From NCBI GenBank assembly GCA_006218035.1, contig VBWC01000001.1, positions 1 through 64,000 on the forward strand: a stretch of 64,000 nt of DNA, in the 5' to 3' direction. This DNA comes from Gammaproteobacteria bacterium. Its GTDB lineage: Bacteria > Pseudomonadota > Gammaproteobacteria > VBWC01. Below are positions 31,218-55,184 of this stretch, one piece after another. The translations under genes and the position numbers were made by a program. Every line of letters starts with the position of its first letter. Positions within the stretch are counted from its first letter, which is position 1. The notes under the pieces were generated by a model. That model had not been told where the DNA came from, did not search any database, and saw nothing but the letters and a program-made list of their open reading frames with translations.

Positions 31218-33310
<2,093 letters not shown>

Positions 33311-33364
33311 GACCTGGGGTATGGATAATGGGTACTCAGGCAATCAGCGGGCACGGCTCCTTCC

Positions 33365-33451
33365 TTCAAGCCTCCCCAAAACGTGTCATGCAGGTTGCCT
33401 TAATTTACCCCGAACTGTACATCTCCCCTCCGTGCAGTTCGGGTTTTTTTT
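33365..33451 (+). ncRNA. Candidate C-rich small RNA, element 1
   Basis: The element contains CTTCAAGCCTCCCCA, then CGTGTC and AATTTACC, and ends in a strong hairpin (CCCGAACTGTAC at 33409-33420 pairing with GTGCAGTTCGGG at 33432-33443) and eight T. The hairpin loop is ATCTCCCCTCC. Both single-stranded stretches contain CCUCC-type sequence complementary to Shine-Dalgarno sites. Element 3 is clearly homologous. The 5' end is uncertain; a possible -10 (TATGGA/TAATGG) is near 33320-33330. Confidence 0.5.
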
Positions 33452-33525
33452 GGGCTTGCTAGCGACGTCACCGTAATGTCAGTGTCAATCAGCATAATAG
33501 AAACTGCTGGTAGCAAACGGTGGTG

Positions 33526-33622
33526 CCGTGACCCCCTCCTCCAAAAGCCGCACCGGCGCTCCACCGCCACTACCCCGCCGGGCAACCCGAGCTATGCCGC
33601 CCCCGCATAGCTCGGGTATTTT
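33526..33622 (+). ncRNA. Candidate C-rich small RNA, element 2 (divergent)
   Basis: The unit contains CCGTGACCCCCTCCTCCAAA and ends in a 12-bp perfect stem (CCCGAGCTATGC / GCATAGCTCGGG, 33586-33616) with a CGCCCCC loop and a TATTTT tail. The stem sequence differs from elements 1 and 3 but the design (unpaired CCUCC run, C-rich loop, strong terminator) is the same. A TAATAG about 30 bases upstream could be a -10 box. Confidence 0.4.
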
Positions 33623-33725
33623 CCCGACCCGCATCGGAAACTGTGACGCTGTTCACGAATATTTAGCTGCCCCGTGCCAATATTATTACCAGATAGTGAA
33701 GCACCGACACGTAGGTACTATCCTA

Positions 33726-33810
33726 CCTTCATGCCTCCCCACCGTGTCGTTATCACTATCGAAATTCGCCCCGAACTGTGTCCCCTCCCATACAGTTCGG
33801 GGTTTTTTTT
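33726..33810 (+). ncRNA. Candidate C-rich small RNA, element 3
   Basis: The unit has CTTCATGCCTCCCCA, CGTGTCG, AAATTCG and a terminator hairpin with an 11-bp stem (CCCCGAACTGT / ACAGTTCGGGG) and loop GTCCCCTCCCAT, then eight T. It aligns along nearly its whole length with element 1. A TACTAT at 33716-33721 sits right before it and could be the -10 box. This looks like tandem duplication of one RNA gene. Confidence 0.5.
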
Positions 33811-33896
33811 GGTTGTGCTGACGGTCGCGACAGTCCAATATAAACGCGCAGCCGATGGCACCTCCGCAATCTCGAACAGATGCGCACGTATCGATC

Positions 33897-34409
33897 ATGG
33901 CACCGATTGAAAACCTGATCCTCGGTGAGTCCACCGGAAACATTGACATCGCCACGAGCGACGAGAGTCGTCTGGCGGCCGTTTCACTGGCGTCTCAGGC
34001 GCAACGAACCTTGCACCTGTTCAGCGGCGATCTCGACGCCCCGATTTATGACACTGTGCCTTTTGTCGATGCGGTCACCTCCCTGGCGACGCGCAGCCGA
34101 TACTCGTTCGTCCATATCCTGTTACAGGATGCCCAAAAAATCGCCAGACAGGGTCATCGACTTCTGGAACTGTGTTACCGCCTCGACAGCAAGGTCAAGC
34201 TGCGTAAACCGGCTTATGAGCATAAGGATTTTAACGAGTCGTTTCTCGTCGCTGACGAGACCGGGGTGTTACATCGTCGCGTCGCCGATCGTTATACCGG
34301 CATCGTCGATTTTAACGCCCGCCGCCAAGCCCGGGAGCTGGTCAGTTTCTTTAACGAAGTGTGGGGGCGCAGCGAACCACACGCTGAACTGCGCCGCCTG
34401 CATCTCTGA
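33897..34409 (+). CDS. DUF7931 (phospholipase D-like fold) protein
   Basis: This 170-residue protein has features of a small domain family found in Gammaproteobacteria: AAVSLASQAQRTLHLFSGDLDAPIYD at the start, SFVHILLQDAQKIARQGHRLLELC in the middle, then DFNESFLVADETGVLHRRVADRYTGIVDFNARRQARELVSFFNEVWGRSEPHAELRRL. The look resembles a PLD-type half domain without a complete HKD motif. Function unknown. It starts at ATG 33897 or possibly ATG 33855, 12 bases after a TATAAA hexamer. The next gene begins five bases after the stop. Confidence 0.7.
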   Translation: MAPIENLILGESTGNIDIATSDESRLAAVSLASQAQRTLHLFSGDLDAPIYDTVPFVDAVTSLATRSRYSFVHILLQDAQKIARQGHRLLELCYRLDSKVKLRKPAYEHKDFNESFLVADETGVLHRRVADRYTGIVDFNARRQARELVSFFNEVWGRSEPHAELRRLHL

Positions 34410-34414
34410 AATCC

Positions 34415-35281
34415 ATGGCGGCATTGCTCCGACGTTTACACGCAGCGTTGTGGATCGCATTCTTCACTGTCCTCGCGACGGCCGGATTCGCGGCGGAAAG
34501 CGCTACCGAGATTCTCGAACTGAAAAATCGGCCGGCAAGCGAGATCATCCCGATGATCAAGCCATTTCTTGCCAACGAGGACGCGATATCAGGCACGGGG
34601 TTTCGACTCATAATACGTACGACACCCGCCAACATGAAGGAAATCCGCAAGATCGTTGCCTCCATCGACCAGGCGCCGCGGCGTTTAGTGATTAGTGTAC
34701 GGCAAAGCGATGTGCGTGACGCCGAACATCAGGCCGGCAGCGTCAGCGGCTCGATTTCGACAGGCGGTGACACGGACGCCACGATCGGCGGCGGGGAAGA
34801 TGCCCGCCCGGGTAACGGACGAGGCGTCACCGTCCGCGTCACGCGAACACGCTCCCAGGCCGATGAAGCAGGCACGCAGCAGATACAGGTTCTCGAGGGC
34901 CACAGCGCTTCGATACGCGTCGGACAGTCTGTTCCGGTGGTGACCCGGGCCGGCAACCTTGAGGGAAAGGTCGCCGGCAAGCATGCCGAGTTCACGTACC
35001 GGGACGTTACCGCCGGATTTGATGTGCTGCCACGCACCAATGGCAATCAGGTGACGCTGGAAATCCGGCCACACCGAGCCAGCATGGATTCCGGCACGTC
35101 CGGCGCGGTCACGGTGCGGCAGATGCATACCACCATTTCGGGCAGGCTCGGGGAATGGCTGGAAGTTGGCGGTATCTCCCAGACCGAGGCGCACGACACG
35201 CAGGGTTACGTATTCTCGACCAAGCGATCGGATGCAATGCAGGGCGTCACGCTGATCAAGGTTGACGAGTTACCGGAATAA
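34415..35281 (+). CDS. Secretin-like periplasmic or outer-membrane protein (short secretin N-domain)
   Basis: This 288-residue exported protein has a signal peptide at about 1-26 (basic RRLHAALW then a hydrophobic run to AGFAAES). Residues 30-95 (ATEILELKNRPASEIIPMIKPFL ... IRTTPANMKEIRKIVASID) match the short secretin N1-type domain used in type II/IV secretion pores. A Ser/Gly-rich region follows (110-130). The C-terminal part contains ASIRVGQSVPVVTR, FDVLPRTNGNQVTLEIRP and GEWLEVGGISQ, all typical of the secretin core beta-region. It is far shorter than a true secretin (usually 500 or more) and has no secretion genes nearby. It could be a stand-alone relative with unknown role; coupled to the DUF7931 gene. 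Confidence 0.7.
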   Translation: MAALLRRLHAALWIAFFTVLATAGFAAESATEILELKNRPASEIIPMIKPFLANEDAISGTGFRLIIRTTPANMKEIRKIVASIDQAPRRLVISVRQSDVRDAEHQAGSVSGSISTGGDTDATIGGGEDARPGNGRGVTVRVTRTRSQADEAGTQQIQVLEGHSASIRVGQSVPVVTRAGNLEGKVAGKHAEFTYRDVTAGFDVLPRTNGNQVTLEIRPHRASMDSGTSGAVTVRQMHTTISGRLGEWLEVGGISQTEAHDTQGYVFSTKRSDAMQGVTLIKVDELPE

Positions 35282-55072: not shown

Positions 55073-55184
55073 GGCGACCCGTACCCGCCACACCCCGGCA
55101 CACGAATCGACTGCTGCCGCTGCTCCCTTCCGGGCCTGACGGGGTTCACGATCTATCGTTGCGGAGGGACTTGCACGGGCCGCC
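55073..55184 (-). ncRNA. ffs: Signal recognition particle RNA (4.5S, bacterial small type)
   Basis: Read on the minus strand, the core CAGGCCCGGAAGGGAGCAGC is present, followed by GGCAG and GTGTGCCGGGGTGTGGCGGG, closely matching bacterial 4.5S RNA. The 5' end GGCGGCCCGT pairs with the 3' end ACGGGTCGCC. Length is about 112. A CCCTTTCTT tail may help terminate. Confidence 0.93.

Follow-up and report, generated by a model that had tools for sequence, protein, structure and literature searches.

Tandem two-hairpin RNAs with C-rich loops and CRP-type promoter sites downstream of purB in gammaproteobacteria

The interval between purB and the DUF7931 gene

The window analysed here is a 64,000-nt stretch of a 3.0-Mb gammaproteobacterial genome (G000). 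Within it, purB is followed on the same strand by three units, and each unit combines a CRP/Vfr-type palindrome of its own with a −10 box and a predicted RNA of about 115 nt; the palindrome of the middle unit is degenerate and the other two are clear. The features are listed below, where z compares a fold with those of shuffled sequences, R1 is our first covariance model of the RNA, and R2 is the model rebuilt after realigning 31 matches, whose training set included all three window copies.

31907–33292, + strand: purB (adenylosuccinate lyase; Pfam PF00206 and PF08328), the conserved upstream neighbour of the RNA array
33288–33303, + strand: CRP/Vfr-type palindrome TGTGAACTGGTTCACA of copy 1, a 10/10 match centred at −41.5 from the predicted start
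33324–33329, + strand: −10 box GATAAT of copy 1, aligned with the [GC]ATAAT of other members at −12/−13
33337–33451, + strand: copy 1 RNA (z −5.66; R2 89.7 bits; covariation)
33338–33345/33393–33400, + strand: outer stem of the predicted 5′ hairpin of copy 1, with a C-rich apical loop at about 33357–33382
33409–33443, + strand: predicted terminator of copy 1, loop AUCUCCCCUCC, followed by a U-run
33457–33472, + strand: degenerate CRP-like site TGCTAGCGACGTCACC of copy 2, a 7/10 match (8/10 in the congener G001), the weakest of the three
33493–33498, + strand: −10 box CATAAT of copy 2, conserved in G001
33506–33622, + strand: copy 2 RNA (z −3.92; R1 24.3 bits; R2 45.5 bits)
33532–33542, + strand: loop CCCCCUCCUCC of the hairpin in copy 2 RNA
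33585–33617, + strand: terminator of copy 2 RNA, loop CGCCCCC
33642–33657, + strand: CRP/Vfr-type palindrome TGTGACGCTGTTCACG of copy 3, a 9/10 match centred at −41.5
33681–33686, + strand: −10 box TATTAT of copy 3 (TATCAT in G001)
33691–33811, + strand: copy 3 RNA (z −7.48; R2 74.1 bits)
33692–33699/33753–33760, + strand: outer stem of the predicted 5′ hairpin of copy 3, with an inner stem at about 33705–33711/33743–33749
33727–33743, + strand: predicted C-rich loop of copy 3, plus a small extra hairpin at 33711–33726
33768–33803, + strand: predicted terminator of copy 3, loop CCCCUCCC
33897–34409, + strand: DUF7931 gene (Pfam match PF25559), the downstream neighbour of the array

Copy 1 starts 45 nt past the purB stop codon with no separate terminator between them, and its palindrome overlaps that stop codon and is identical in G001, the one congener genome used for comparison. 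On the 3′ side of the array, positions 33897–35281 hold the DUF7931 gene and then a short secretin-domain gene, with similar neighbours in several other carriers of the RNA; judged by eye from translations, DUF7931-like genes also lie downstream in G317, G036:C85, G101, G290 and G337. An R2 search of the window found no RNA copies beyond the three. A scan of the window against Rfam gave a single match that reaches its threshold, the bacterial small SRP RNA (RF00169, 64.3 bits) at 55079–55175 on the − strand.

A preliminary description of this DNA had recognized two outer elements, at 33365–33451 and 33726–33810, that align over nearly their full length, and had placed CCUCC-type sequence in a single-stranded leader and in the terminator loop. 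The alignment is confirmed, and both folds are far more stable than those of shuffled sequences. The bounds, however, were too short: when the fold is extended upstream, the C-rich segment becomes the apical loop of a 5′ hairpin whose outer stem begins at the predicted transcription start, some 28–35 nt further upstream (about 33337 and 33691). The CCUCC-type runs are thus where they were described, in the 5′ region and the terminator loop, but the supposed leader is not single-stranded. The predicted transcripts are about 115–121 nt long in the three copies, which does not support the 85–100 nt first proposed. The outer stems pair AGGCAAUC with GGUUGCCU in copy 1 and GAUAGUGA with UCACUAUC in copy 3, and the inner stems pair GGCACG with CGUGUC and CGACACG with CGUGUCG, respectively. 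Each RNA ends in a U-run preceded by a terminator hairpin, which also has a C-rich loop. In copy 3, the C-rich loop also contains the small hairpin UAGGUACUAUCCUA (33711–33726), which copy 1 lacks and G001 retains. Copy 2 is built on the same plan as its neighbours, in line with the earlier view that the middle element shares their design: it also folds more stably than shuffles, and R1, trained without copy 2, recovers it in both congeners (24.3 and 21.8 bits).

The array region is 92% identical overall between G000 and G001. Measured from their predicted 5′ ends, the outer elements differ at 6 of 235 positions, against 27 of 203 in the spacers (Fisher p = 1.8e-5), whereas the middle element, with 11 changes in 126, shows no significant slowing relative to the spacers (p = 0.22). 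Base pairing survives two of the changes: a U-G pair of the copy 1 outer stem becomes U-A, and in the copy 3 inner stem a C facing G becomes U. A protein-coding reading was rejected; indels in G001 break the short open reading frames across copy 1 and, as the preliminary description had it, there is no protein gene among the elements, none being conserved in 33293–33896 by open-reading-frame check and congener comparison.

An RNA family conserved next to purB

Five unrelated genomes from other families of the class carry the same two-hairpin RNA downstream of purB, and a search with R1 brought up many others. Among the 31 realigned members, standard pairs occupy 91.2% of cells (35–40% with slid partners), both sides have changed in at least one sequence at 29 of 30 base pairs, and there are 233 double-changed cells against 65 in shuffles; these counts lean towards structure because the alignment (A4) was fitted to the model, but the margin is nonetheless large. 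All three window copies have the hairpins of the family: the 5′ hairpin, built of an outer and an inner stem, and the terminator. The composition of the loops is also distinctive: C makes up about 58% of the 5′ loops (with 4% G) and 55% of the terminator loops, against 28% of the stems. Given that the loops stay C-rich while the stems change freely, the loops are what selection keeps. The terminator loop may not be essential, because it is short or not C-rich in some members. In L159 and in the second copy of L068, GGAGGG-type terminator loops (GGAGGGA in L159) replace the C-runs; these could possibly complement the RNA's own C-rich 5′ loop or a partner copy.

Of 369 genomes sampled from the class, 54 have R2 matches. 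With family labels added, the copies linked to purB fall into at least 17 families (f1, f2, f16, f36, f42, f43, f55, f64, f75, f90, f101, f117, f128, f132, f144, f147 and f178). Strong matches lie nearly all about 40–520 nt past purB on the sense strand, and the window copies are likewise downstream of purB on the same strand. Tandem arrays hold three copies in G000 and G001 and two in G090, G075 and the Chromatiaceae locus L068. Of the copies in G036, one follows purB and another precedes a DUF7931-like gene, as if a tandem had been split in two. Three loci of a single genus (L158, L163 and L167, from G022, G169 and G276) have the RNA and a CRP-type site without purB adjacent, and their loops are almost pure C (CACCCCCCCCCACCC...).

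We also searched with R2 a test set of 80 purB loci, gathered from public genomes by protein similarity. It gave 8 matches in 7 loci (two of them in L068), all on the sense strand and 58–366 nt after purB. All 7 loci have a CRP-type site at −41.5 to −44.5, and 6 of the 7 lie outside the R2 training set, the other (L082) being apparently the same contig as training genome G244. No such RNA was found after purB in the Pseudomonas, Marinobacter, Halomonas, Shewanella, Alteromonas and Thiodiazotropha loci examined, and the family is therefore widespread but patchy. Its carriers are mostly metagenome assemblies; a symbiont of Lamellibrachia tubeworms and an uncultured member of the Chromatiaceae are among them.

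Below about 45 bits, R2 is not specific unless the purB and CRP context is present, and weak matches in the class (about 26–38 bits) without purB were mostly treated as false. Neither purB nor a CRP-type site was found among the inspected matches outside the class, which for that reason were treated as convergent or false. Two out-of-class genomes (L183 and L184) have a two-hairpin RNA with the C-rich loops CCCCUCCCCCU and CCCCUCCCCUCCC, again without purB or a CRP-type site; this is probably a separate C-rich sRNA.

CRP-type promoter sites

The preliminary description did not include the CRP-type promoter of each outer element. In nearly all of the early examples, a TGTGA-N6-TCACA palindrome is placed where a class II CRP promoter would need it to initiate at the outer stem's first base. 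A CRP-type site matching at least 8 of 10 positions near −42 accompanies 38 of 41 purB-linked matches, whereas dinucleotide shuffles predict 0.34. By contrast, purB loci without the RNA have such sites at chance level (6 of 71, with 6.35 expected), and the site was accordingly rejected as a feature of purB itself. Alignment of 45 promoters revealed TGTGA-N6-TCACA, a [GC]ATAAT-like −10 box at −12/−13 in most and no clear −35 box. Because the upstream DNA is not part of the models, this promoter pattern is independent support for the family. In the window, the site is clear in copies 1 and 3, but copy 2 reaches only 7/10; copies G075a and G090b have no CRP site. Copies away from purB (G022, G169, G276, G036:C85 and G285) retain it.

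A site centred at −41.5, a good −10 box and the lack of a clear −35 box are the arrangement of class II activation. FNR-type sites have the form TTGAT-N4-ATCAA, which the palindromes do not fit. The genome encodes a protein that matches the structures of Pseudomonas Vfr and E. coli CRP (E ~1e-94 and ~1e-87), with the recognition helix CSREMAGR. It therefore combines sites at −41.5 with a CRP orthologue, as in a class II CRP regulon. Two proteins with class III adenylate/guanylate cyclase domains and Hfq are encoded as well. CRP control of the RNA copies, and with it dependence of their promoters on cAMP, is what these sequence features predict.

Proposed function and relation to known RNAs

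The earlier suggestion of a multicopy regulatory-RNA locus is strongly supported by the covariation, the purB-adjacent conservation across families and the CRP-type promoters. We hold with good confidence that the locus consists of three tandem paralogous genes for trans-acting sRNAs, belonging to a family located downstream of purB, with predicted class II activation by CRP and with C-rich loops that would be directed at Shine–Dalgarno-like sites. The structure, its conservation in the family, the purB synteny and the CRP/Vfr-type site at −41.5 with its −10 box can be read from the sequences themselves. In the proposed mechanism, cAMP–CRP/Vfr would switch on every copy by class II activation, and the cell's cAMP state would probably set the amount of RNA made. 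The resulting RNAs of about 115 nt would have their 5′ end closed in a stem, present a large C-rich apical loop and end with the Rho-independent terminator, whose loop is usually C-rich too. On the model of sX13, GsrN and the Neisseria siblings discussed below, the C-rich loops may act on ribosome-binding sites, serving as short seeds on G-rich (Shine–Dalgarno) segments of mRNAs, probably with help from Hfq. Such pairing would mostly block translation, and the array would convert the cAMP level into post-transcriptional repression of a set of genes.

A search for long complementarity to the 15-nt loop core found no conserved match at gene starts in G000 or G001. Apart from the sRNA genes themselves it returned scattered sites with two mismatches, of which none combined a convincing gene start with conservation in both genomes; one conserved site lies within a coding sequence resembling 2-oxoglutarate dehydrogenase E1. 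Any pairing must therefore use short seeds. Copy 2 counts against our reading of the locus: its CRP site is degenerate and it evolves nearly as fast as the spacers.

Several other explanations were weighed. Copy 1 could be mainly the purB terminator or a processed 3′ untranslated region, with the other copies as stray terminators and any sRNA a by-product, given that copy 1 follows the purB stop codon so closely with no other terminator between and that every unit includes a terminator. However, covariation is as good in the 5′ hairpin as in the terminator, the CRP-type promoter fits the RNA start in 38 of the 41 purB-linked matches, copies 2 and 3 are not preceded by a gene, and the CRP-type site persists in copies located elsewhere than at purB. 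Covariation in the 5′ hairpin, together with a promoter at a set distance from it, leads us to reject generic terminators. The preliminary description had named conservation solely as generic terminators as grounds for giving up its idea; the search of relatives for this did not refute the idea, and we regard the terminator explanation as very unlikely. The strongly C-rich, nearly G-free loops, the tandem copies, which suit a sponge, and the lack of a specific mRNA target in the long-complementarity search of G000 and G001 would also fit a CRP-controlled RNA that works without base pairing and targets a protein instead, perhaps by acting as decoy to an RNA-binding protein with a preference for C. 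We know of no established bacterial C-tract-binding protein in such a role, and CsrA-type sponges have GGA, not C-runs. Moreover, sX13 and GsrN, with similar loops, work by base pairing (PMC3771888, PMC5869019), and we consider a decoy unlikely.

Base pairing under class II activation also has to be set against the converse regulation, in which CRP or another CRP-family protein represses these promoters, as cAMP–CRP does at spf (Spot 42), a case cited in PMC3771888. The evidence here is one of binding geometry, which leaves room for a repressor; but the centre at −41.5, the good −10 box and the absence of a clear −35 box are arranged as for class II activation, and repression seems improbable. 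That the elements are simply known cuckoo, sX13 or ErsA RNAs, with which they have the C-rich-loop design in common, we judge extremely unlikely. Their weak, sub-threshold Rfam matches (to tfoR, anti-hemB and Pseudomon-1/ErsA) were put down to chance or similarity of design; no family in Rfam 15 reaches its curated threshold on the array elements, nor does any on the family's RNAs in the other carrier loci scanned, and gene context and promoter differ.

Among the closest known trans-acting sRNAs is sX13, whose C-rich apical loops act on G-rich mRNA motifs and which resembles the window RNAs in its length of about 115 nt, its C-rich apical loops and its conserved position after a housekeeping gene. 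It differs in having three C-rich stem–loops and an unstructured 5′ end, in lying downstream of polA, in being reported only from Xanthomonadaceae and in being Hfq-independent (PMC3771888), whereas the window RNAs have two hairpins, a stem-closed 5′ end, the purB locus, a CRP-type promoter and tandem copies. GsrN of Caulobacter similarly pairs an exposed C-rich 5′ loop with G-rich mRNA leaders, but it is alphaproteobacterial, is controlled by Sigma-EcfG and activates katG (PMC5869019). Pseudomon-1/ErsA (RF01719) has a C-rich terminator loop and is weakly matched by our model, but the ErsA locus so matched scores 121 bits with its own Rfam model and lies away from purB, and the window elements fall far below the RF01719 threshold.

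Tandem arrangement also has precedents. CcsR/cuckoo RNAs of alphaproteobacteria, likewise tandem, carry anti-Shine–Dalgarno motifs in two hairpin loops. They form one transcript with a DUF1127 gene, driven by an RpoH promoter, and RNase E processes them (PMC10253847), whereas each window copy has its own predicted promoter and the neighbours are purB and the DUF7931 gene, with no DUF1127 operon. In Neisseria, the adjacent siblings NgncR_162/163 (NmsRA/B) block ribosome-binding sites through loop and single-stranded segments and control metabolism; the available part of their description gives them three stem–loops and mentions neither a CRP promoter nor a link to purB (PMC9973317).

Regulation is similar in CyaR, a single-copy RNA whose locus and sequence are other than those of the purB-linked RNAs and to which the window elements have no Rfam match. 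This enterobacterial sRNA depends on cAMP–CRP and pairs with the Shine–Dalgarno region of its target (PMC11795201), both of which are predicted for the window RNAs. The window RNAs would thus work like the known C-rich-loop sRNAs and the CRP-controlled CyaR, yet they fit none of the tested families. No purB-linked sRNA was found in the open-access literature, and the two-hairpin C-rich-loop family after purB is apparently undescribed. Because gene position is fixed, structure conserved and the promoter shared, it should be easy to annotate and is directly testable. CRP-controlled sRNAs are well known in enterobacteria, while this family occurs in gammaproteobacteria that are themselves known mostly from metagenomes. 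On balance we favour the broader view that it is a widespread cAMP–CRP-dependent family, a counterpart of CyaR and Spot 42 in many non-enteric gammaproteobacteria, amplified in tandem in some lineages and linking cAMP to the translation of many genes through its C-rich loops. Such RNAs would tie the C-rich loop to another regulator than those of the cases described elsewhere, in support of a repeated origin of the design.
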